A DNA stretch of 41,429 bases from a virus: the IMG/VR virus record IMGVR_UViG_3300043446_002754, positions 1 through 41,429 of that record; one strand, given 5' to 3'. Every line of letters begins with the position of its first letter. Position 1 is the stretch's first letter. Of this stretch, positions 9,319 to 35,843 are shown piece by piece. Both the position numbers and the translations under genes were made by a program. Below the pieces are notes generated by a model. That model was not told the DNA's origin. It did no database searches and worked only from the letters and a program-made list of their open reading frames with translations.

Positions 9319-10728
9319 ATGTTCAACCCCGACTTCTACCCCACGCCGCCGGAGGTGGCGGCCACCATGCTCGACCCGCTCGACCTGCGCGGTCGGGTGG
9401 TGGTGGAGCCCTCCGCCGGCAGCGGCAACCTGGTCACCGAGGCCATGGCTCGCGGCGCTGCTGAGGTGCTGACGGTGGAGCCTGAGCCGAAGCTGCGGGC
9501 AATCCTCGCCGCCATTCAGGGCAGCCGCCTGATCGGCAACGACTGGCTGGCCATCACCGCTGACCAGATCAGCCACGCCGACCTGGTGGTGATGAACCCG
9601 CCCTTCAGCGCGGACGAGCGCCACATCCTGCACGCCTGGGCCATCGCCCCGGCCGGCTGCGAGATCGTCAGCCTGTGCAACTGGAACACGGTTGATGGCT
9701 ACCGCAGCACCCGCATCCAGCAAGAGCTCTGCACGCTGATCGAGCAGTACGGCAGCAGCCAGAACCTGGGCCCGGTGTTTGAGGATGCCGAGCGCACCAC
9801 ACATGTCAGCGTTGGCCTCGTTCGTCTAACAAAACCCGGCCAACGTGTAAGCGGCGCTGATGAGTTCGACGGGTTCTTCCTGGGCCCCGACGACATCGAG
9901 GCCCAGGGCGAGGGCATCATCCCTTACCGCCGCAGCCGCGACCTGGTGAACCGCTACGTCGAGGCCTGCCGGATCTACGACCAGCAGCTCGAGGCCGGCG
10001 TGCGCCTGCAGGCCCAGGTGGGCGGCATCTACAAAGGCGAGCTGGGCCTGCAGATCACGATGGAGGGCTGCGCCGCCAGCCGCAACAGCTTTCGCAAGGA
10101 GCTGCAGAAGGCGTTCTGGGAATCGGTGATCGCCGAGATGCTGCCGCGCGAGATGGCCACCAGCCAGCTCCAGGGCGACATCAACACGTTCGTGGAGCAG
10201 CAGACGAAGGTGCCGTTCACGGAGCGGAACCTGTTCCGGATGCTGCAGATCATCGCCGGCACATCAGAGCAGCGGATCGACCGCGCGGTTGAGGCTGCGT
10301 TCGATGAGCTGACCCGCCACACAAAGGAAAACCGCTGGGCCGTGGAGGGCTGGGCGACGAACGACGCCTACCTGTTTAACCAGAAGTTCATCGTGCCTTA
10401 CCTGGCTGAGCCTGACTGGAGCGGCGGCACGGTCAGCATCCGCTACGGCGGCAACAAGATCCGCGTGCAGGATCTGGTGAAAGCCCTCTGCTACATCACC
10501 GGCAAGCCGTATGCGGAAGTGGAGAAGCCTGACCGACCTGGTGGCTTCGACCGACTCGAGCCCGGCGTTTGGCACGACTGGGGGTTCTTCGAGTTCAAGG
10601 TCTACAAGAAGGGCACCGGCCACTTCCGGTTCAAGGATCCGGAGGACTGGGCGGCGCTGAACGCCCGCGTCGCCCGGATCAAAGGCCTGGTGCTGCCGGA
10701 GAAGCTCCGGCGGAAGCGCCGGCCGTAA
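9319..10728 (+). CDS. DNA methyltransferase-like protein with DUF4942 C-terminus
   Basis: A 469-residue protein. Residues 1-180 are a class I SAM-dependent methyltransferase domain: EPSAGSGN at 30-37 is the SAM-binding loop and NPPF at 93-96 is the catalytic motif of N6-adenine or N4-cytosine DNA methylases. The C-terminal half resembles DUF4942, with WATNDAYLFNQKFIVPYL and FFEFKVYKKGTGHFRFKD. Phages use such enzymes to modify their own DNA against restriction. No cognate restriction gene is present. Target sequence unknown; domain calls are by motif recognition. Confidence 0.82.
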   Translation: MFNPDFYPTPPEVAATMLDPLDLRGRVVVEPSAGSGNLVTEAMARGAAEVLTVEPEPKLRAILAAIQGSRLIGNDWLAITADQISHADLVVMNPPFSADERHILHAWAIAPAGCEIVSLCNWNTVDGYRSTRIQQELCTLIEQYGSSQNLGPVFEDAERTTHVSVGLVRLTKPGQRVSGADEFDGFFLGPDDIEAQGEGIIPYRRSRDLVNRYVEACRIYDQQLEAGVRLQAQVGGIYKGELGLQITMEGCAASRNSFRKELQKAFWESVIAEMLPREMATSQLQGDINTFVEQQTKVPFTERNLFRMLQIIAGTSEQRIDRAVEAAFDELTRHTKENRWAVEGWATNDAYLFNQKFIVPYLAEPDWSGGTVSIRYGGNKIRVQDLVKALCYITGKPYAEVEKPDRPGGFDRLEPGVWHDWGFFEFKVYKKGTGHFRFKDPEDWAALNARVARIKGLVLPEKLRRKRRP

Positions 10729-18348: not shown

Positions 18349-19065
18349 TCAGGGTTGAGCAATGATCGCCCAGCCGGTGCCGGGCCCCTCGACCATCCAA
18401 CGACGACCGAGATTCTGGCGGGAGTAGCGCAGCCGCGCCCCCCAGTTGTTGATGTAGCCACCGTTCAGGAGGTCCAGCTCGCCGAACGGATCGTGGACCG
18501 TGATGGCCTCGGCGTCGTGGCCGATCGCGCAGATCCAGTGGCCGCCGCCGGTGGGTGCTGAGATCAAGCCCTTATGCAGGATGCCGATCGGCACTGGGAT
18601 GCCACGATCGATCTGCCCCTCGATGGTCCGCCAGTCCGCGGCCTTCGTCAGGCTGGCGGTGATGCCGAAGCTGGCCAGGGCCTTGAGCTGCGCCCCGGCA
18701 TCGGTGGTATCGCCGAAGCGCAGCACGCGGCCCAGGTAGGCATCGTCGCCGTTGGGGCCCTGGAGGCTGCCGGGCCGCAGCGTCTCGAGGAGCATGGCGC
18801 AGCTGGAGCTGAAGCACATCCGGAGGGCATGCTCCGTCGCGCTGTCGCGCTGGCTGAAGTACGGCACCCGCAGGGGGTTGGTCAGGGTCCTGGGCGTCTC
18901 CTGCTTGCCGCCGGCCTTCCAGGTCTCGTACCAGGCCGCGTCGCGCTTCTTCAGGCTGGCCGGCACCGCCTCCCAGAACTGCTGCACGGCGGCGCGCTGA
19001 TGCGGGAGGCCCTTCCAGTTCTCGAAGAACGGAACGATGTCCGGGATGAGTTGGTCATCGCTCAT
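18349..19065 (-). CDS. C39-like cysteine peptidase
   Basis: A 238-residue protein with a papain-like C39 domain. VPYFSQRD begins the domain at about residue 67, MCFSSSCAMLL carries the probable nucleophile C84, GGGHWICAIGHD the His at 176 and VHDPFG the Asp at 192. Such domains cleave peptide bonds, either in peptidoglycan cross-links or in proteins. Position between two lysis-type membrane genes suggests a second lysis or entry enzyme; the substrate is inference. The ATG at 19065 overlaps the upstream gene. Confidence 0.75.
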   Translation of the reverse strand: MSDDQLIPDIVPFFENWKGLPHQRAAVQQFWEAVPASLKKRDAAWYETWKAGGKQETPRTLTNPLRVPYFSQRDSATEHALRMCFSSSCAMLLETLRPGSLQGPNGDDAYLGRVLRFGDTTDAGAQLKALASFGITASLTKAADWRTIEGQIDRGIPVPIGILHKGLISAPTGGGHWICAIGHDAEAITVHDPFGELDLLNGGYINNWGARLRYSRQNLGRRWMVEGPGTGWAIIAQP

Positions 19066-19318
19066 GGGCCTGCGATGCGGGGGGATCGCCGAACTGTAGG
19101 CGCGGGTCGATGGCCTGCCAGAGCAGCGGCGCGACGACGGCAATCAGGACGGCGAGGATCACGCCCTGAGCCACCCGCTTCTCCAGATCGCCGAGCCTGC
19201 GGAATGCCTCTGAGAGGTCGGCCTGCTTCTGGCTCAGGATGCCGGTGAGGGCATCCACCTTGCCCTCCAAACTGCCGAGCTTGTGGTAGATGTCGCCATG
19301 CGAAACCTCTTCCGGCAT
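19055..19318 (-). CDS. Coiled-coil membrane protein, holin/XhlA-like
   Basis: An 87-residue protein. Residues 8-50 look like a coiled coil (LGSLEGKVDALTGILSQKQA, FRRLGDLEKRVAQG), followed by a membrane helix (VILAVLIAVVAPLLW) and a short polar tail. Coiled coil followed by one membrane segment is the plan of XhlA-type lysis accessory proteins, and the location in the lysis cassette agrees. It overlaps the C39-like gene by 11 bases. Confidence 0.6.
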   Translation of the reverse strand: MPEEVSHGDIYHKLGSLEGKVDALTGILSQKQADLSEAFRRLGDLEKRVAQGVILAVLIAVVAPLLWQAIDPRLQFGDPPASQAHER

Positions 19319-19356: not shown

Positions 19357-20859
19357 TCAGCGGGCTGATCCGGCCTGCAGGTGAAGCAGACGGAGATTGC
19401 CTTCGGGTGTGCTGATCTCGACGACATAGCCACCAGCCCCGGTGTAGCCGAGGTTGCGCACGTAGGTGGCGCCATTGACGAGGGTGATAGCAGACCCTGT
19501 GGGTGTGCCGAAGTCAATCCCGGCGTGGAAGCTGCGGCCGAACAGGCTGCGGGGCCCGTACCCGCTCGTGACGCCGAAGGAGCTCGGTGGACGCCCGTTG
19601 ATGCGGATGTAACGATCGGCGACGCTGGCATTGATGGGCCGGCGATCTGCCCACCGCACATCCAGGTGGGGGCCAGTCGAGTCGCCGGTGCTGCCGGTCC
19701 TGGCAATCACCCCGCGCGTCCCCCCGGGACCGGCCGGACCGGACCGGCCGTAGCGACTGCGGCCGGTGCCGCGGCCCCCCGGTGCATCGTCCCAAGTGTC
19801 GGTGTCCTCGACCACCTGAGTGCCGCACTCGACCGTCGTGATGTAGCCGCCGCTGGCCAGTTCATGCGTCACTTGGCGGACGAACCACTGCCCGTCGATG
19901 TAGGGCCTGAAGTTCCTGAGGATGACCTGCCCCTCGGCATTGATCCTGAACGACGGGTCGCCGCTCATCCGCACCGTGATCTTCACCTCACCAGACTGAA
20001 GGCTCTGCAGCTGGCTCTTGGCCGCGGCCTCCGCCTCGACCTTGGTGCGGAACAGCTTCTGGATCTGGAACGGCGGCAGCTGCTGCCCACCGCCCCCGGT
20101 CCATGACGCGCCGCCACCATTGCTCGCGGTGGCGCCGCTGGCCGTCACCTTCTTCTCGGTGTTGCTCCACTGGCTCACCCCGCCTTCCGCCTCGCGGTCG
20201 ACGTAGCGGGCCTCGACCGAGCCATAGGCTCCGCGGTTCTTCAGGCTGGCGTTCCAATCCAGCGCCTGGGTGATGTCCACCTGCTGGATCGGGCCCGCTT
20301 GGCCGGCCGCCCGATCGACCAGCACCAGCTTGTTGTCGGCCGGCTTGATCACCGCCTGGAACCGATCGGCCAGGCGGGTCAGGAAGTTCTGGTCGCTCTC
20401 GTTCGTCTGGTCCTCATGGAGGATCTTCTGCTGGGCCGCCTTGCCCTTGATCGTGATCTGCAGGCCGTTCTCCTTCGCGATCTGCTCGGCGATCTCCTGC
20501 AGGGTCTTGTTGTCCCAGCTGCGGGTCTTCCGCTCCTTCACCAGGCCGGGGGCCACCGCGGCAGCGGAGGCCTTGACCGTCATGCTGCGGGGGCCGCCCA
20601 TGCTCAGGCCCACCTCATCGACGGCGTAGGACCCCATGTAGACCGGCGGGAGGCCACCGTCGCTGTAGCCGAGCCAGACCTTCAGGATCGCCCCGCTGCG
20701 GGGCACCGGCAGCAGCTTGTCCCGATCGTCGAGGGCGAGCTCCAGGCTGTCGCTCTGCTGTCCGCTGTCGTCGACGATCCGCAGGCTGGTAAGCCGGTCC
20801 TGCAGCTTCTCCGTGATGTCGTCGCCGTCGCAGACGATGCGGAATGCTGGTGTCGACAT
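19357..20859 (-). CDS. D: Late control gpD-like hub protein with M23 domain
   Basis: A 500-residue baseplate hub protein. Residues 1-355 match the P2 gpD family (RIVCDGDDITEKLQDRLTSL, AISxxLGL-like IAKENGLQITIKG, QTNESDQNFLTRLADRF). A Gly/Arg-rich linker at 358-385 leads to a probable M23 zinc peptidase: TGDSTGPHLD (H398, D400), FHAGIDFGTP (H445, D449) and LLHL (H493). The order is permuted: the STGPHL motif, normally last, comes first. The domain could cut peptidoglycan during entry. The stop of this gene lies downstream of two likely holins; the start overlaps gene X by one base. Confidence 0.88.
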   Translation of the reverse strand: MSTPAFRIVCDGDDITEKLQDRLTSLRIVDDSGQQSDSLELALDDRDKLLPVPRSGAILKVWLGYSDGGLPPVYMGSYAVDEVGLSMGGPRSMTVKASAAAVAPGLVKERKTRSWDNKTLQEIAEQIAKENGLQITIKGKAAQQKILHEDQTNESDQNFLTRLADRFQAVIKPADNKLVLVDRAAGQAGPIQQVDITQALDWNASLKNRGAYGSVEARYVDREAEGGVSQWSNTEKKVTASGATASNGGGASWTGGGGQQLPPFQIQKLFRTKVEAEAAAKSQLQSLQSGEVKITVRMSGDPSFRINAEGQVILRNFRPYIDGQWFVRQVTHELASGGYITTVECGTQVVEDTDTWDDAPGGRGTGRSRYGRSGPAGPGGTRGVIARTGSTGDSTGPHLDVRWADRRPINASVADRYIRINGRPPSSFGVTSGYGPRSLFGRSFHAGIDFGTPTGSAITLVNGATYVRNLGYTGAGGYVVEISTPEGNLRLLHLQAGSAR

Positions 20860-21069: not shown

Positions 21070-22020
21070 TCAGTTCCCCGCGAGCTGGATGAGTGGCCGC
21101 AGCGCGTCGGTCACCTTCGGATCGACCTTCAGGATCTCGCCCAGGGTGGCGGTGCTCTGCAGCAGGGTGCCGATCGACTGGAGGTTCTGCGGGGTGACGA
21201 TGCCCAGCTGCTGCAGGGCCGGGGCGCCGACGGCGGACGCGGCATCGAGGGCCAGGGCCATGCCGGTCGATCCCTTCCCGTTGACGTAGGACTGCGCGAG
21301 GTTGGCGGCGTTGATGCCGACCTGCGCCCAAGCGCTGTTGAGGTCTGGCGCAATGCCGAATGCACCCATGGTGCCCAGCGCTGCACCCACGTAGTCGCCG
21401 CTCTTGACCTGGCTGGCGATCTTGATGCCCGTCTGCGCGATGCTCGCCAGCTGGCCCAGGTTGAAGCCCTTGCCTGTCGCCGCACTGGTCAGCGTGGAGG
21501 GCAGGCCGGCGAGCGCACCGAAGGCGCTGCCGGGATCGCTGAATGCTCCGGTGAGGCCGGCCGTGAGCGACGTGTTGAGGACTGTGCCGAAGGCGACCGA
21601 GAGCGGGCTGGCGGCGAGGCCCGGGTTGTCCTCGCCGTAGCGGACCAGCTCGACGGTGAAGCCGATCTGACGGGGGCTGCCACCTGCGACGAAGTGGGAC
21701 TGGCCCTCGCGGATGTTGCGGATCGCCCAGCGGCCGAAGATCTTGCCGTTGCCGGCAGTGAGCATCAGCGGCTTGCCGGCTGCCGCCAGGTCCCGAAGGG
21801 TGTCGAGCGAGCCGACGCGACCGGCGAAGCCTGTCTGCGGAAACAGGACACCATCAAGGGTGATCTGCTGGCTGCCGGCACCGATGAACTGCCAGGCAGG
21901 ATCGCGCAGCAGCCGTTGCTGTTCCTCCCATCGGTACTCCGCTCCGCGATCGAGGGTCTGCGGGACACCGTTCGGGAGGTCGAACTGGAAGTCGCCGAGC
22001 TGGAAGAGGGGGCTAGTCAT
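21070..22020 (-). CDS. U: Tail protein U (P2 gpU-like)
   Basis: A 316-residue tail protein. Residues 1-130 match P2 gpU, which sits at the tail end next to the hub: LGDFQFDLPNGVPQTLDRGA, WQFIGAGSQQITLDGVLFPQ, LTAGNGKIFGRWAIRNIREG and FTVELVRYGED. The remaining residues are Ala/Gly-rich helices (ATGKGFNLGQLASIAQTGIK) without a family I recognise, making the protein about twice the usual gpU length. The start overlaps the tape measure stop by eight bases. Confidence 0.88.
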   Translation of the reverse strand: MTSPLFQLGDFQFDLPNGVPQTLDRGAEYRWEEQQRLLRDPAWQFIGAGSQQITLDGVLFPQTGFAGRVGSLDTLRDLAAAGKPLMLTAGNGKIFGRWAIRNIREGQSHFVAGGSPRQIGFTVELVRYGEDNPGLAASPLSVAFGTVLNTSLTAGLTGAFSDPGSAFGALAGLPSTLTSAATGKGFNLGQLASIAQTGIKIASQVKSGDYVGAALGTMGAFGIAPDLNSAWAQVGINAANLAQSYVNGKGSTGMALALDAASAVGAPALQQLGIVTPQNLQSIGTLLQSTATLGEILKVDPKVTDALRPLIQLAGN

Positions 22021-24670
22021 GGAGCAGGGCCCGATAGGTGGACTCCAGCTCCCGCTGGATGTCGGCGAAGGCGAGCTCGACCTGGCGCCGCACTGCCATC
22101 GGATCCGCCGCTGCCGCTCCGCTGATGGTAACGGGGGCGTGGATGTTGACCGTGTGGGAGGCCGCGGCCGGAGCTGCAGCGACGGGAGCAGGAGTGGCCA
22201 GCAAGGCGGCCATGGCGGCGGCCGTGACGGGCTTGGCGACGCGGGGGATGACGGTGCCGTTCATGCCGGGCACGATGAGCTCTGCGCGGCGCTCACCCAC
22301 CAGGTAGGGCAGGCCGGCGCGGATGCGACCACCGCGCGCGCGGAATTGCGGCTGCCGACCAGGGGGCGTGCCAGGCACGGGCCTGGCCGCGGCGGATCTG
22401 CCGGGTGCCGGTGTGGGGGCTGCAGTCGGCATTGCCACGTCGCCGGGGTCTTCGGCGCCGCCGCTGACCATCCCCTTGATCCGGTCCCAGGTGGAGCTGA
22501 TCCAGCCGAACAGTGCGCTGGCCCTGGACTTCAGGCCGTTCAGGATCGCGTTGATCACGGCCTGGCCGACGCTGGCCACCTTGCCAGGGGTCTGCCGGAT
22601 GAAGGCAACGATGCTGTTGAAGACCGTTTGCACGCCGGGGATGATCCGCTGGAAGATGCCGATCACCTGGCCTGGCAGCAATGCCAGGGCGCCGAGCACG
22701 CGAGGCCCCCACGCGCGCACGATCGCCAGCATCTGATCCCAGATCTGCCCGATGGCCGGCACCAGCCGCTGGAAGACGGCGGTGATCAGCGCAGGGATCG
22801 GGAACATGATGGCCAGCACCTTTGGCGCCCAGGCGCGGATGATGCCGAGGCCCGCCTCCCACACCTGCCCGACCCAGGCCGTGAACCGTCCCCATCGCGC
22901 TTGAATGTCGGCCCATGCCTTGGCTCCGGAGGAGTTCACCTCCTCCCAGGCGCGGCCGGCGGCCTTGCTGATCTGCGGCCAGTATTTGACCAGGGCGTAG
23001 ATCGCTGCGCCGATGCCGGCGATCAGGGCAATCCAGGGAAGCAGCGGAAGCATGGCAGTGAACGCCGCGCCGGCGAAGGTGGTGAACCCTGTGACGGCGG
23101 TCGCAACGAAGCCTGTGATGGCTGTGCCGATCGCCGCAAATGCCGGACCGACGACGCCCAGGGCCCCGGCAATGGTCGCACCGAGACTGCTGAACCAGCC
23201 GGCTGCGATGCCGATGTACCCGAGCCATCCGGCGATCGTTGCGCCGATCGTCACGCCGGCCATTGCCGTGCCGATGGTGCCGATCGCGGTGATCACCCCG
23301 GCGATGATCGGCAACGCGATCACCAGGCCCGCCAGCGCGCCGCCGATCAGCACGATGCCGGTCACCAGGCCCTGGTTGTTCTGCGCGAACTCGGCGAACT
23401 TCACCAGCACCGGCCCGATCGCCTTCATGATCGCGTTCAGGCTCGGCAAGATCGCCGCGCCGATGCTCACGCCCAGGGCGTTGATCCCGTTCCTGAAGAT
23501 CTGCGCCTGCGCGGCGCTCGTCCCCATCTGGTTCTGGAACTCCTTCTGCATCGAGCCGGCGAACGCCTGCTTGTTGCGGATGAGGTCGAAGGCCTGTCCG
23601 ATCAGTTTGGTGTTTGTGAGCAGCGGCATGATCGCCGCCTTGCTCTCCTCGCCGAACAGGGCCCCGGCGATGCTGACCTGCTGCTCCTTCGGCAGCTTGG
23701 CCATCTTCTCGAGGACGCTCTTCATCGTCCCTTCCGGGTCGACCTGCATCCCCTTCGCCAGCTCCTGGGAGATGTCCATCGCGGCGCCCTTGGCCGCCTT
23801 CTTCGCCCCCTTCTGGCCACGCTTGATGGCCGCCCCCAGCCCGTCGCCGCCGAACAGGGTCGCCAGCGCATACTGCTGGTTCGTGGTCGCCTGCTCGCCC
23901 TTCGTGAGTGCGTTGAGGAAGTTCTTCAGGCCGGTGGCCGCCACCTCCGTCGGCGTGCCGCTGGCCAGGAACGCCGCGCCCATCCCGGCCACCTGCTCAG
24001 CGGTGAGGCCCGCCGCCTTGCCGATCGCACCGATCCGCCGCGTCACCTCCGTCAGATCCGCCGCGTTGACGGTGCCCTGGAACTTGTCCGACAGGTAGTT
24101 GATCGCATCGCCCAGGTTCTCGACCTGCGGCTGGGTCAGCCCCATCGAGGCCCGCAGCGCCACCATCGCGTCGCCGGCCTGCTCCGCCGTCATCTGGAAT
24201 GCCACCCCCATCCGAGCCGCAGCCCTGGTGAAGGGGATGATCTCGCTCTCCTTGTAGCCCGCAAAGCCCGCGCTCGCGGCGATCTGGCTCAGCTGCGCTG
24301 CGGTGTAGGGGAGCTCGGTCGACAGCTTGATCAGCTGGTTGCCGAACCGCTTGACGCCCGCCTCACCGTCCTTGAAGTCGATGGCCTTGCGGACATCGGC
24401 CATGCTCTTGTCGAACTCCATCGCGGCCTTTACGGACAGGCCGATGGCCCCCGCAAACGCCGTCGCCCCGATCGTGGCCTGCTGCCACAGGGCGTTGTCG
24501 AACATCGACTTGAAGCCCTTGCGGCCGGCGATTGCCGCATCGTTCATCGTCCGGGTGGTGTTCCGCCCGAACGTCGACACCTGCATCTGCGCAGTGCGCA
24601 GCGACTGGCCCAGCGAAGCGGCGATCTTGCCGCCGATCTCGACCGTGATCCTGCTGATGCCGCCGGTCAT
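22013..24670 (-). CDS. Tail tape measure protein
   Basis: An 885-residue tape measure protein that sets tail length and fills the tube. The N-terminal 350 residues match the TP901/P2 T core: GATAFAGAIGLSVKAAMEFD, KSMADVRKAIDF, TELPYTAAQLSQIAASAGFAG, then LTAEQVAGMGAAFLASGT. A long hydrophobic region (about 420-570, e.g. IAGVITAIGTIGTAMAGVTI) is usual and may cross the host membrane. The C-terminus is helical with a Pro-rich linker. If it obeys the usual scaling the tail is about 130 nm; this is a rule of thumb. Confidence 0.93.
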   Translation of the reverse strand: MTGGISRITVEIGGKIAASLGQSLRTAQMQVSTFGRNTTRTMNDAAIAGRKGFKSMFDNALWQQATIGATAFAGAIGLSVKAAMEFDKSMADVRKAIDFKDGEAGVKRFGNQLIKLSTELPYTAAQLSQIAASAGFAGYKESEIIPFTRAAARMGVAFQMTAEQAGDAMVALRASMGLTQPQVENLGDAINYLSDKFQGTVNAADLTEVTRRIGAIGKAAGLTAEQVAGMGAAFLASGTPTEVAATGLKNFLNALTKGEQATTNQQYALATLFGGDGLGAAIKRGQKGAKKAAKGAAMDISQELAKGMQVDPEGTMKSVLEKMAKLPKEQQVSIAGALFGEESKAAIMPLLTNTKLIGQAFDLIRNKQAFAGSMQKEFQNQMGTSAAQAQIFRNGINALGVSIGAAILPSLNAIMKAIGPVLVKFAEFAQNNQGLVTGIVLIGGALAGLVIALPIIAGVITAIGTIGTAMAGVTIGATIAGWLGYIGIAAGWFSSLGATIAGALGVVGPAFAAIGTAITGFVATAVTGFTTFAGAAFTAMLPLLPWIALIAGIGAAIYALVKYWPQISKAAGRAWEEVNSSGAKAWADIQARWGRFTAWVGQVWEAGLGIIRAWAPKVLAIMFPIPALITAVFQRLVPAIGQIWDQMLAIVRAWGPRVLGALALLPGQVIGIFQRIIPGVQTVFNSIVAFIRQTPGKVASVGQAVINAILNGLKSRASALFGWISSTWDRIKGMVSGGAEDPGDVAMPTAAPTPAPGRSAAARPVPGTPPGRQPQFRARGGRIRAGLPYLVGERRAELIVPGMNGTVIPRVAKPVTAAAMAALLATPAPVAAAPAAASHTVNIHAPVTISGAAAADPMAVRRQVELAFADIQRELESTYRALLHD

Positions 24671-25096: not shown

Positions 25097-25606
25097 TCAG
25101 ACTCCGATTGCGGTGCGGATCGATTCCAGCTGGTCGACGCCGTTGATCCGGCGAATCATGTTCACCACGTCGATCTCGTGCACGACGCGGCCGCCGACGG
25201 TCACCTTCAGGTAGCGAAGGGCTGCGCTGAACTTGGAGGACGTCTGGTCGCCAGACTTCCAGTCGCCGGAATCGTGCTCCTTGATCACGCCAGTCATGTT
25301 GACGATCATCGCCACGGCGGCCTCACCATCACGGCGCAGAGCGCCGCGAGCGGTGAGCTGGGTGGCGGCACCATCGGCAAGGCCGTAGAGGCTGAGGATG
25401 TTCGGGTCGTACTCGAACAGCTCGAAGCTGGCCTCCAGCTTCTCCATGCCGAGGTCGATCTCGGCGGGGACATCCATCCCACCGCCGCGATACTCCTCCA
25501 TCTTGGTGGTGAGCTTCGGGAGGGTGAGGGTGGAGACGCTGCCGGCGAGGCCGCGGCCATCGACGAACAGGCTGAAGTTCTTCAGTACGCGGGGAATCTG
25601 GGCCAT
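25097..25606 (-). CDS. FII: Major tail tube protein (FII)
   Basis: A 169-residue tail tube protein stacking in hexamers to form the inner tube. It matches P2 FII: MAQIPRVLKNFSLFVDGRGL at the start, LTLPKLTTKMEEYRGGGMDV, the strand LEASFELFEYDPNILSLYGL and a C-terminal part with LKVTVGGRVVHEIDVVNMIR. Position after the sheath gene and length both agree with the family. No deviation noticed. Confidence 0.95.
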   Translation of the reverse strand: MAQIPRVLKNFSLFVDGRGLAGSVSTLTLPKLTTKMEEYRGGGMDVPAEIDLGMEKLEASFELFEYDPNILSLYGLADGAATQLTARGALRRDGEAAVAMIVNMTGVIKEHDSGDWKSGDQTSSKFSAALRYLKVTVGGRVVHEIDVVNMIRRINGVDQLESIRTAIGV

Positions 25607-25641: not shown

Positions 25642-27060
25642 TCAGCGGAAGAGGTCGACGACGTAGGAGTTGACGAGGTGCGACCGGAAGGTCACACGCT
25701 CCGCCGGATAGGGCGGAGTGAATTCGAAGTCGAAGAAGACCTGACCGTTGGCGATGGTGGTCGGGCTGTTCAGCTCAGGATCCACCCAGACGTCACCGCC
25801 GAGGATGGCGCCACGGGCCTTGAGGTCGCGCAGGTAGCTGCGGACCGACTCCTGCACCTCCTCCAGGTAGGTAGCGGTGATGCAGCGGTCGACGGCCCAG
25901 AGGTGGCCACGGAGGATCGACTCGTTGATCATGTCGGCCGTGCGCCGCACCGACAGGAAGCAGTATTTCGGATCGCTGGCCAGGGTGCGGTTGCCCCACA
26001 GGCGGAAGCCCTGCTCGCGGACGATCGTCGCGATCTTCAGCTCGTTCAGCAGGTTGGCCCGGCTGGTGTAATCGCCCAGCGTGAAATCGATGGCGCGGGC
26101 GGTGCCCTCGATGCCGTTGATCTCGTTGTTCGAGGGGGACCACCAGAAGCCGCGCTCGTTGTCGATCTTGTTGATCAGACCGGCGACGGCTGGCGAGGCG
26201 GGGATGCTCTCGCCATCGCGGAGGACCCAGGGATCGACCACGTAGATACGATCGGAGCCAAAGTCGTCGGCGATCTGAATCACGGCCGCGTCGGTGGTGC
26301 TCGGGCCGTCGGCGATGATCACCGCGCGGAGGCGCTGCGCGATGCCGAGCATCTCGGCCAGCACCTCGGAGCGGACCACACCGCGGTTGACGGTGCCGGC
26401 AGTCGCCTGGGTGCCGCCGGAGGGGGGAGCACCGATCGTGACGGTCGGGCTGGTGGAGTAGCCGGAGCCAGGGTTCGTGATCGTGATGGAGACGACCTTG
26501 CCGGCAGTGTCGCCGGTGCCGAGCACCGCGATGGCAGTTGCCTGCTTGCCGGTGCCGCCGGGGGCCGCGATGGTGACAGCCGGGGCGGTGGTGTAGCCGG
26601 CGCCCTGGTTCTGAACGGCGATGCTCAGGATGCCGTTGGTGCTGCGCTGATGCGTGAAGCCAGGGGCGATCAGCACGCGGGGGGCAAAGCCCACCTCATT
26701 CTCGGCGGCCAGGAAGGCGTGGACCCCCTCGTAGGCGCCGGTGGTGTTGTTGATCCCGCCGCGGACGTTGTTGATGGTGGCGGCCTCGTTGACGCCCTGC
26801 GTCACCCGGACGACAACGACGACTGCGCCGGCCTGGTCATAGATCAGGTCCAGGGCGGAGTAGAGGGTGCCAGTTTCACCGAGGCCCACCATCTCCGACC
26901 GCCGGGTCAGCATGACCGGGGTGTTGAGCGGGAACTTCTCAGCATCGGCATCAGGCGCCGTACCGACGAGGCCGATCACGGAGGATCGGATGGTCTGAAT
27001 CGGCCGAGCCCCAGTGTCGATCTGGAGGACCTCTACGCCGTGCAGAAAGGTCGTTGTCAT
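25642..27060 (-). CDS. FI: Contractile tail sheath protein (FI)
   Basis: A 472-residue sheath protein, which makes this a myovirus. The N-terminal FLHGVEVLQIDTGARPIQTI and SSVIGLVGTAPDADAEKFPL are typical of P2 FI and relatives. The C-terminal domain includes GFRLWGNRTLASDPKYCFLS and VRRTADMINESILRG, plus the closing DFEFTPPYPAERVTF. A middle insertion near 145-230 contains two copies of a Gly/Pro-rich repeat (GAGYTTAPAVTIAAPGGTGK; GSGYSTSPTVTIGAPPSGGT), probably a surface domain on the sheath. Confidence 0.95.
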   Translation of the reverse strand: MTTTFLHGVEVLQIDTGARPIQTIRSSVIGLVGTAPDADAEKFPLNTPVMLTRRSEMVGLGETGTLYSALDLIYDQAGAVVVVVRVTQGVNEAATINNVRGGINNTTGAYEGVHAFLAAENEVGFAPRVLIAPGFTHQRSTNGILSIAVQNQGAGYTTAPAVTIAAPGGTGKQATAIAVLGTGDTAGKVVSITITNPGSGYSTSPTVTIGAPPSGGTQATAGTVNRGVVRSEVLAEMLGIAQRLRAVIIADGPSTTDAAVIQIADDFGSDRIYVVDPWVLRDGESIPASPAVAGLINKIDNERGFWWSPSNNEINGIEGTARAIDFTLGDYTSRANLLNELKIATIVREQGFRLWGNRTLASDPKYCFLSVRRTADMINESILRGHLWAVDRCITATYLEEVQESVRSYLRDLKARGAILGGDVWVDPELNSPTTIANGQVFFDFEFTPPYPAERVTFRSHLVNSYVVDLFR

Positions 27061-33192: not shown

Positions 33193-34035
33193 TCACGTCA
33201 CCGTCGTGATCTTTCCGCCAGCGGCCACGCCCTGGCCGTCCCATGCCTGATCGGTCCACTGCAGCGCAGTCCACCGCAGCTCCACATTGCGGCTCGCACC
33301 GCCGGGAATGACATCGACGCAAGCGATCGGATCGTTCAGCAGGTGCCATTCCTCATCGACGAAGCTGTGATCAAGGATGAAGGTGTCGATGTACGGCACC
33401 AGGGAGGGGTAGGCATCGGTCCGAACATCTCCCACCTGCGGCTGGGCCTGGATCCACTCCGCGCGGAAGTCGCCGAAGCTGATCTGTGGACCATCGGGGC
33501 CCAGTGGGCGGGTCCCGGTGTGGTCGCTGAGCGGGCTGCCCTCGCTCAGCAGGCTGTCGTCCAGGACAAACCGGCGGTGGTCATAGCGGCTGAAGATCCG
33601 CTGCAGGCGCGACCGCAACGGCTGGCTGATGGTCGTCACACCCACCATCCGGTGGATGATCTCCAGACCCTGAACGGGTGCGGGAATGCCGATCTGGTAT
33701 TCAGCCCAGCGGTAGCTGCCCCCCTCGCTCTCGTCGATGCTGCCGCTCAGGCCCAACCAGCCGAGGCCGATCAGCACCGCCTGAGGTGTACCGCGCACTC
33801 GCTGCCAGGCGATCCCATCGATCAGGGCCTGGCGTTGATCCGGCAGGTACTCAAGGACCTCGCCGAGGCCGTATTCGTAGATCAGCCAGGGGACAACGGA
33901 CTCGGGGATGTCCAGCCGCTTGGCCGTCCGGATGATGGGCACCGGCCGGCCGATGCGCTCCAGGAAGGACGTGGCGCGCGAGAAGTCGCGCTCCAGCTGC
34001 GTCGCATTCGGTGGCAGGAGGTCGTAGCGGCTCAT
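33193..34035 (-). CDS. I: Baseplate wedge protein I (P2 gpI-like)
   Basis: A 280-residue wedge protein. Residues 1-190 match the P2 gpI family: YDLLPPNATQLERDFSRATS at the start, DIPESVVPWLIYEYGLGEVL, DQRQALIDGIAWQRVRGTPQ and the WLGLSG segment. The C-terminal 90 residues extend beyond the usual domain and end with VELRWTALQWTDQAWDGQGV. The stop of gene J overlaps its start by one base, the standard J-I order. Confidence 0.88.
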   Translation of the reverse strand: MSRYDLLPPNATQLERDFSRATSFLERIGRPVPIIRTAKRLDIPESVVPWLIYEYGLGEVLEYLPDQRQALIDGIAWQRVRGTPQAVLIGLGWLGLSGSIDESEGGSYRWAEYQIGIPAPVQGLEIIHRMVGVTTISQPLRSRLQRIFSRYDHRRFVLDDSLLSEGSPLSDHTGTRPLGPDGPQISFGDFRAEWIQAQPQVGDVRTDAYPSLVPYIDTFILDHSFVDEEWHLLNDPIACVDVIPGGASRNVELRWTALQWTDQAWDGQGVAAGGKITTVT

Positions 34036-35006
34036 CAGCGGTCACGACCCGCAAGGGTCAGCGACACGGTGCCGAGAGCCGGCGCCTGATTCGGGGAACA
34101 GATGACATTCGCCATGGGGCCTGTCAAGACGACCCGCTGCACGCCAGCAGGGTGGAGCTGGGCAATGATCCACGTCTGCGTCACGTCCCAGCCGAGACCA
34201 GACTGAGCGCTGAAGGCATCGCGCAGGCGCTGCTCCAGGCCGTCGAACACGGCGCTGGGTGACTCGTGGTAGAGCCAGACCTGCGCCGTCACGTTCACCG
34301 GCACGATCTCGGCGCCGACCACCGTCAGGACGTCGGTGATCACCCGCACGTCGTCGGCCTGCAGCCGATCATTCACCGCGGCCACCAGATCGTCGCTGGC
34401 GATGCCGTAGCCGCCGCCTGCCGTCACCTCCGCGAGGATCCGCGCGCGGTAGGCCTCGTCGCTCTCGCCCGTGGTGCGGACGATGCCGAACGCGACGCCC
34501 AGCTGGTCCAGGTTGGAGCCGGTGGCGGCCGGCACCTCCTCGGCCTCCTTGCTCAGGATGGCGACCGCCACCCGGCCGGGCTCCGGGCTGGAGACGTTCG
34601 CATCCTTCACCCGCGGGTCTGCCGCCAGGGCCTGGGCGCGATACCAGGCGCGGCCGCCAGCGGTGCTGCTGCCCATGATCCGCTCGATGGTCCGCAGCCG
34701 CAACGCATCGTCGCTCTCGCCCTGCAGCCTGGTCACCCCGTAGAAGGCGGCCAGGTTGTCCATGTCCGCACCCATGGCGTAGCGCAGCAGGGTGGCCTGG
34801 AGCGCATCGTTGATCCGCTGCCGGAGGATCAGCTCCCGGGCCGCGGCCACCTCGAGGATCTTCACCCCCGGGTCGCTCTCCAGGATTTCGCTGTAGGCCT
34901 GGTCACGGGCCTGGAGATCCGCGATCATCTCGCCGAGGATCGACTCGTAGTCGAGCTCCTCGATGATCTGCGGCGCCGGGATGACGCTGAAGTCGATGGT
35001 CGCCAT
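34035..35006 (-). CDS. J: Baseplate protein J (gp47-like)
   Basis: A 323-residue baseplate protein joining wedges around the hub. It matches P2 J / Mu gp47: PAPQIIEELDYESILGEMIA near the N-terminus, ESDPGVKILEVAAARELILR, DNLAAFYGVTRL, and VKDANVSSPEPGRVAVAIL in the middle, then VTAQVWLYHES and GWDVTQTWIIAQLHPAGVQ at the C-terminus. It shares one base with gene W upstream and gene I downstream. Confidence 0.95.
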   Translation of the reverse strand: MATIDFSVIPAPQIIEELDYESILGEMIADLQARDQAYSEILESDPGVKILEVAAARELILRQRINDALQATLLRYAMGADMDNLAAFYGVTRLQGESDDALRLRTIERIMGSSTAGGRAWYRAQALAADPRVKDANVSSPEPGRVAVAILSKEAEEVPAATGSNLDQLGVAFGIVRTTGESDEAYRARILAEVTAGGGYGIASDDLVAAVNDRLQADDVRVITDVLTVVGAEIVPVNVTAQVWLYHESPSAVFDGLEQRLRDAFSAQSGLGWDVTQTWIIAQLHPAGVQRVVLTGPMANVICSPNQAPALGTVSLTLAGRDR

Positions 35007-35347
35007 CAGATCACCAGCCCCTGGATTTCGACGCGCTTGCCGTTCAGCAGGTAGAAGCCGACAAGGCTGAGCTCGATGCGGCCATCAGCGCTCACGCTGT
35101 CGATCACCACCTTGTCCAGCCGGAGCCGAGGCTCCCAGCGATCGAGCGCCTCGGCGGTGGCCGCCACCAGCTCTGAGACGAGGCTGCGGTTGATCGGCCG
35201 GTCCACCAGACGGGGAAGGCGGCTGCCGTAGTCGCGGCGATGCACTCGCGTCCCGACCGGCGTCGTGAGGATGTCCTGGATGCTCTGGCGCAGGTGGTCG
35301 AACCCACCCAGGGCCTGGCCGGTGTCGCGACTCATCCCACGCGCCAT
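35006..35347 (-). CDS. W: Baseplate wedge protein W (gp25-like lysozyme fold)
   Basis: A 113-residue protein of the GPW/gp25 family, which fastens sheath to baseplate. The core LRQSIQDILTTPVGTRVHRR with DYGSRLPRLVDRPINRSL is the family signature, ending in ALDRWEPRLRLDKVVI. Order V-W-J-I agrees with P2. No unusual feature noticed. Confidence 0.95.
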   Translation of the reverse strand: MARGMSRDTGQALGGFDHLRQSIQDILTTPVGTRVHRRDYGSRLPRLVDRPINRSLVSELVAATAEALDRWEPRLRLDKVVIDSVSADGRIELSLVGFYLLNGKRVEIQGLVI

Positions 35348-35360
35348 CTGCCCGCCTCCG

Positions 35361-35843
35361 TCATGGGTTCAGGTCGATTCTCTCACCGATGATGGTGACG
35401 TTGCCGGTTGCCCGGATGGTGATGTCGCCCTGCACGTCCAGCAGGTAGTGGCCTTCCTCGCGGTCGTACTGGATCACGGTGCCGTCGCTGAACTCGGTGC
35501 GCTGCACCGTCTCCTTGTTCGCGATCTGCGGGAAGTCGCTGCTGATCTGCGCGGCCATCACCACTCCGTTGTGCAGCTCGCCGCTGGGGGCCAGCACCAT
35601 CACTCGCTCCCCCACCTCCGGCGCCCACCAGAAGCGGTCATTGCCGGAGCGTAGGGTGAGCCACGGCAGCCAGGCCGTCTCCAGGTCGCCATCCTGGATG
35701 TCGACGCGCAGCAGGCCCTTCTCGTAGTCGGCCTCCTTCACCTGCCCGTAGCGCATCAGGTTGTTGGCCACCCGGGCGTGGTTCGACGCCTCGCGGCTGC
35801 CGACACCGGACGTCGTGTGATCCGAGCGGTTGACGCCCAGCAC
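35361..35843 (-). CDS. V: Baseplate spike protein V
   Basis: A 160-residue central spike protein of the P2 V family. It has an N-terminal arm, an OB-like domain (YGQVKEADYEKGLLRVDIQD, WLPWLTLRSGNDRFWWAPEV, GERVMVLAPSGELHNGVVMA) and a C-terminal beta-helix start (QRTEFSDGTVIQYDREEGHY, ITIRATGNVTIIGERIDL). The C-terminal needle is short compared with P2 V, consistent with a separate PAAR tip protein (17228-17518). The start lies three bases after the upstream stop. Confidence 0.9.
   Translation of the reverse strand: MLGVNRSDHTTSGVGSREASNHARVANNLMRYGQVKEADYEKGLLRVDIQDGDLETAWLPWLTLRSGNDRFWWAPEVGERVMVLAPSGELHNGVVMAAQISSDFPQIANKETVQRTEFSDGTVIQYDREEGHYLLDVQGDITIRATGNVTIIGERIDLNP

Follow-up and report, generated by a model that had tools for sequence, protein, structure and literature searches.

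Hub gene and its surroundings

The window, by which we mean the whole analysed stretch of 41,429 nucleotides of viral DNA, carries a baseplate hub gene of the P2 gpD / pyocin R2 type within a P2-like contractile-tail gene cluster. The 500-residue product scores 48.7 bits against PF05954 (GPD), above the cut-off of 30.1, and 314 bits against the tail-protein family phrog_52, and it matches the pyocin R2 protein 6u5h with an E value of 2.7e-41. All three matches fall on the hub core, in agreement with the first-pass annotation, which had described an M23 peptidase domain fused to gpD. The likeness to the P2 gpD / pyocin R2 hub (6u5h, PF05954) spans residues 1-346 of the window protein, but 6u5h itself (329 aa) has no peptidase tail. 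Hub core and peptidase domain are separated by a linker, and residues 347-396 of an AlphaFold model of the full hub display low pLDDT. The features of the gene and of its cluster are as follows.

19357..20859, minus strand: baseplate hub gene (P2 gpD / pyocin R2 type), 500 aa, ATG to stop, permuted peptidase at the C-terminus
19810..20859, minus strand: hub core, aa 1-350 (phrog_52 aa 2-387, PF05954 aa 108-335, 6u5h aa 4-346)
19711..19809, minus strand: Gly/Arg/Ser-rich linker, aa 351-383, of differing length between hubs in the alignment
19360..19710, minus strand: circularly permuted M23/LytM domain, aa 384-500 (~117 residues), from the rotation test, reversed profile pieces and AlphaFold
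19648..19710, minus strand: piece 1, aa 384-404, the canonical C-terminal strand (IGxxGsTGxSTGPHLHxE; PF01551 positions 68-87, canonical HMM 86-106)
within piece 1, minus strand: GSTGDSTGPHLD strand, carrying H398 and D400, first in domain order
19585..19647, minus strand: new joining segment DRRPINASVADRYIRINGRPP, aa 405-425 (~21 residues), from conservation in the alignment
19360..19584, minus strand: piece 2, aa 426-500, the canonical N-terminal two thirds (TSGYGPR...HxGxD...LLHL; canonical HMM 3-71, PF01551 2-46)
21070-22020: gpU gene, contractile-tail cluster
22013-24670: tape measure gene, contractile-tail cluster
25097-25606: phrog_55 gene, contractile-tail cluster
25642-27060, minus strand: sheath gene, contractile-tail cluster
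34035-35347: baseplate wedge genes, contractile-tail cluster
35361-35843: base-V / gpV-type (OB-domain) gene, contractile-tail cluster

Three other genes of the window deserve mention. Directly downstream of the hub, the gene at 18349-19143 (minus strand) encodes a PF13529 C39-like peptidase domain and matches the endolysin family phrog_10051; it is probably a separate lysis enzyme. The sheath protein contains an insert at residues ~141-230 with a repeated GxGYxxxPxVTI motif, which matches tail-fibre and baseplate-wedge families rather than sheath. At 9319-10728, a plus-strand gene lying amid minus-strand genes resembles phage DNA methyltransferase families (phrog_32703 and others). The nearest bacterial match to the window region is a Synechococcaceae metagenome-assembled genome, two contigs of which share ~74% DNA identity with it, and hence the host of the phage is likely a cyanobacterium.

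Order of the M23 motifs

On the translated minus-strand frame the residues H398, D400, H445, D449 and H493 fall exactly where the first-pass annotation had placed them, and the motifs run in the order it had reported, STGPHLD, then HxxxD, then LLHL. On the native domain, PF01551 matches split into two separate stretches, and neither the whole protein (22.9 bits) nor the domain alone (27.8 bits) reaches the curated cut-off of 28.7. Once the N piece is placed after the C piece, a single match over positions 2-87 emerges at 29.1 bits, now above the cut-off, while scrambling the N piece in this re-ordered construct leaves only 16.4 bits.

A canonical M23 profile of 114 positions, built from 24 natural canonical-order M23 domains, was used to score the window domain in each of its 127 rotations. 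The native order reaches 36.0 bits over positions 3-72, close to the median over rotations (36.4 bits), whereas the best rotation, starting at residues 414-424, reaches 63.4 bits over positions 3-106; with order ignored, M23 homology thus covers the entire domain. When the N piece was shuffled 1,000 times, the mean score was 37.0 and the maximum 49.3 bits. Re-ordering raised the score in all 46 permuted members to which it was applied, from a mean of 30.3 to 48.1 bits. These observations confirm that the permuted order in the window hub domain is real and not a product of chance.

The layout of the two pieces points at the position of the cut. Piece 2 runs into the stop codon just past the catalytic-His strand, which places the cut in the loop that follows the LxHL strand; there the hub form lacks most of the canonical V..G..V..GQ stretch. 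The joining segment links the old C-terminus to the old N-terminus, contains a short helix at residues 411-417 in the AlphaFold model (model H38-44, E45-47) and is conserved in alignments of the hubs and most tape measures.

As circular permutations usually arise through tandem duplication, an intermediate with two M23 copies probably existed, and the hub might retain merely the end of a degenerate copy beside the start of a second one, with no working permuted domain. We regard such a remnant as very improbable, since the complementary halves that it would leave behind are missing. When whole proteins (2 hubs and 7 tape measures) were scanned with the canonical profile, all matched the C-terminal piece first (profile positions 86-106 in the window, ~76-86 to ~105 in the others) and then the N-terminal one (starting at 3 or 4 and ending at 71-92); no further complementary half rose above noise, and the order HxxxD, HL, HxH appeared in none of them. 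Moreover, the joining segment and both pieces are conserved with low dN/dS, the hubs all end at the same residue, other proteins start or end with the domain at the same cut, and AlphaFold returns a confident, single compact model. An artefact, be it a frameshift, a chimeric assembly or a misaligned canonical M23, is even harder to credit. Nothing except the odd order speaks for it, and against it stand a reading frame open to a conserved stop and the recurrence of this order across dozens of independent contigs, complete isolated-phage genomes and bacterial prophages. The circular permutation itself is therefore upheld by the rotation test, the reversed profile pieces and the absence of a leftover half, and no canonical order emerges after correct alignment.

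AlphaFold on residues 374-500 with 41 natural alignment rows gave a pLDDT of 89.7 and a pTM of 0.85; the full-hub model (16 rows; pLDDT 58.7, pTM 0.29) was poor and was left out of the fold assignment. On re-alignment of PDB chains with VIA-align, the six best entries (4lxc, 4qpb, 9gy1, 4rny, 4rnz and 5kqb) were all M23 proteins, among them lysostaphin, StM23, Csd3 and LytU, with Z of 5.2-4.8 against 3.9 for the next, unrelated entry. A Z of ~5 is weak on its own, and these alignments cover the C-terminal part of the model only, ending before the HxH strand. With lysostaphin, model residues 43/50-127 align with chain residues 252/256-335, reaching the strand of His329, which is catalytic in that enzyme (PMC9662197), and stopping before HxH. 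Both the partial coverage and the modest Z of 5.2 can be explained by the sequential aligner, which fits just part of a permuted domain. For the same reason, the lack of a Foldseek match in the PDB at E ≤ 0.001 is expected; 9gy1 is the only M23 entry there to align reasonably well over part of its length (TMq 0.40). The predicted structure appears M23-like across its C-terminal three quarters.

Full-length matches (TM ~0.7) are limited to virion proteins with the same permuted domain. In BFVD these are four viral proteins with TMq of 0.68-0.73, namely an internal virion protein of Synechococcus phage P60, a virion protein of S-TIM5, a tape-measure fragment and A0A510E7V3, whereas alignments with canonical M23 proteins span just 60-84 columns.

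Active site and predicted role

In M23 enzymes the HxxxD motif supplies zinc ligands, and the first His of HxH together with an upstream His activates the water (PMC9662197). The corresponding codons of the window hub gene are listed below.

19666..19668, minus strand: H398 codon CAC, equivalent of LytM H291 (catalytic)
19660..19662, minus strand: D400 codon GAT, at the position of LytM H293 (Zn ligand), His in most M23
19525..19527, minus strand: H445 codon CAC, Zn ligand position
19513..19515, minus strand: D449 codon GAC, Zn ligand position
19381..19383, minus strand: H493 codon CAC, at the position of LytM H260

Conservation was counted over 77 distinct permuted domains, in which the motif order is identical. 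H398 and the HxxxD pair H445 and D449 are present in all 77, H493 in all 76 domains in which it is aligned (one is not), and D400 in 76, the remaining domain having His. HLD accordingly replaces HxH in the window and in 76 of the 77 domains. D400 is expected, from its alignment, to occupy the place of the third zinc ligand, normally His, and the His-Asp-Asp zinc site predicted here would be unusual for M23.

The first-pass annotation had listed the Asp alongside the permuted order. The Asp is indeed present at D400, but the two features are independent. Three canonical-order phage M23 domains (L274, L276 and L277) also display HxD, with HxxxD and HL motifs intact, and HxH occurs in the permuted members L033 and S-TIM54. 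We therefore rejected a causal tie between permutation and the His-to-Asp change. The HxD variant appears to extend more widely than the permutation, a separate oddity that is nevertheless family-wide in the permuted domains.

We consider it probable, with good confidence, that the hub ends in a circularly permuted metallopeptidase of the M23 (LytM) type, ~117 residues long and predicted to cut peptidoglycan at entry. This reading draws on the motif order, the presence of a single complete domain, homology, conservation, purifying selection and location on a virion protein; zinc binding, catalysis, substrate and timing are what we infer as its best explanation. The chain would have been opened in the loop following the strand of the first catalytic His (LytM H260, here H493), with the old ends joined by the conserved ~21-residue segment, so that the HxD strand now comes first. 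All five residues would still gather into one site in three dimensions, the zinc being held by H445, D449 and D400, the latter in place of the usual third ligand His, and the water being activated by H398 and H493. Displayed on the tail-tip hub, or in relatives on tape measures or injected proteins, such an enzyme would cut peptide cross-links of the peptidoglycan locally while the contracting tail crosses the envelope, or during genome delivery. Judged by its sequence, the domain is most likely a virion-borne, putative Zn endopeptidase that opens peptidoglycan during entry. The entry role that the first-pass annotation had suggested from the hub fusion hence stands as probable and putative.

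The main competing explanation is that the fold is permuted but catalytically dead, the Asp change having removed the zinc and left a peptidoglycan-binding or assembly module as in EnvC/NlpD. Some M23 folds have degenerated and taken on non-enzymatic roles (PMC9662197), D400 substitutes a zinc ligand in nearly all members, and the first zinc His is also lost in P60 gp33 and in L272. However, 77 distinct sequences retain the five active-site positions, while dead M23 folds lose such positions freely, and HxD recurs in canonical-order phage domains that are otherwise intact. Asp, furthermore, commonly serves as a zinc ligand. A dead domain is thus unlikely for the family as a whole, although it carries more weight than the remnant or the artefact. 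Parts of the wider permuted group may be inactive, since distant members vary in the HxxxD motif (SFGVD in P60, NAID in L272). For the window hub, an active peptidase remains the preferred reading.

Comparison with known systems places the domain within M23 / PF01551 (LytM, lysostaphin, EnpA, StM23). It shares with them HxxxD, the catalytic His in an LxHL strand, the STGPHL strand, the glycine pattern and, as it appears, the predicted fold of the C-terminal three quarters; it differs in its permuted order, HxD for HxH, the new joining segment and a native score below the Pfam cut-off. M23 domains with a presumed entry role are also found on virion tail proteins in Listeria phage B054 (Tmp, which matches both halves) and in EnpA of an Enterococcus faecalis prophage (PMC8269130), but both have the canonical order, N piece then C piece, and HxH. 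Circular permutation of a peptidoglycan-peptidase superfamily is on record for NlpC/P60-related enzymes (LRAT-like, YaeF; PMC6403190), a precedent in an unrelated cysteine-peptidase fold. HABAS domains of RNA polymerase display topologies related by circular permutation, and their structural alignment includes an M23 protein (PMC11515920); these are not peptidases, have no active site and are only remotely similar in structure.

Carriers and movement of the permuted domain

The permuted domain is not a peculiarity of one hub, as the first-pass annotation might suggest, but a family spread across hubs, tape measures and internal virion proteins. Searches with tblastn recovered the same order in tape measures of Acinetobacter and Moraxella phages and in cyanophage S-TIM54. 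Two successive scans of viral contigs produced 88 and 280 relatives, many of these loci representing one and the same contig; with the S-TIM54 domain as query on viral contigs, just canonical M23s were among the matches listed. Carriers comprise hubs of sheath-bearing phages, tape measures, internal virion proteins of cyanopodoviruses and small cyanophage proteins. In P60 gp33, S-CBP1 and DSL-LC07 the domain is C-terminal on a T7-like internal virion protein, with the HxxxD His unaligned in P60 and the spacing one residue shorter in the other two. The isolated phage S-EIV1 has it at the start of a 248-aa protein annotated as M23, and two cyanobacterial genomes encode ~200-aa versions. In bacterial chromosomes the domain is rare. 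At 1e-6, 9 of 399 genomes from the cyanobacterial order gave a match, which was permuted in just some of them; at 1e-9, matches came from 2 of 386 genomes in the cyanobacterial phylum and from 1 of 398 in the Acinetobacter phylum.

Domains on hubs and on tape measures are up to ~75% identical, and from this similarity it follows that the permuted domain has moved between unrelated virion proteins. Among ten long records analysed by profile search, both hub-type records have GPD and sheath genes, and none were detected by these profiles in the eight tape-measure-type records, which may be fragments. In a tree of 46 domains the hub label needs at least 3 changes; with 11 of 43 branches starred and long branches for S-EIV1, S-TIM54 and L292, the branching is too poorly supported to tell whether the domain passed from hub to tape measure or the other way. 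The domain is under purifying selection, with dN/dS of ~0.04-0.14 in seven pairs. Wherever the context is known, the domain sits on a part of the virion that comes into contact with the envelope, namely hub, tape measure or internal virion protein. On balance we lean toward a naturally circularly permuted M23 lineage with a predicted His-Asp-Asp zinc site that serves phages as a transferable entry module, on hubs, on tape measures of phages with no detected sheath or hub gene, and distantly on cyanopodovirus internal virion proteins. With both chain ends at one loop after the cut, the domain may be easy to append or insert.

The full-text literature searched, which excluded subscription journals and preprints, contains no description of a permuted M23, and the domain is apparently an undescribed version of a well-known enzyme. 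Owing to the natural permutation, profile searches miss or split these enzymes; several are labelled tape measure, virion structural or hypothetical protein in phage records. With the permuted M23 one can ask directly which loops the fold can do without, engineered lysins with new termini could be built on it as a natural scaffold, and the movement of entry enzymes between contractile and non-contractile tails could be traced by it; the domain also shows how cyanobacterial and Acinetobacter/Moraxella phages may cross the cell wall.

Some relatives display further variations. A related hub (L110:1043-2905) has, besides the permuted M23, an SLT_3/SLT transglycosylase that interrupts the hub core midway, and so unites two wall-cutting domains in one protein. 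L292, a 611-aa open frame on the minus strand, encodes a divergent hub whose insert of ~150 aa (EGGYESFNRGTAGDSAG...) is a different one and matches no Pfam family; its permuted M23 has diverged as well (HFD, HRGWD, LHG). The 1716-aa tape measure L272 has a permuted-looking M23 with GAHLDIR and FLHG, and NAID for HxGxD, possibly a dead version.
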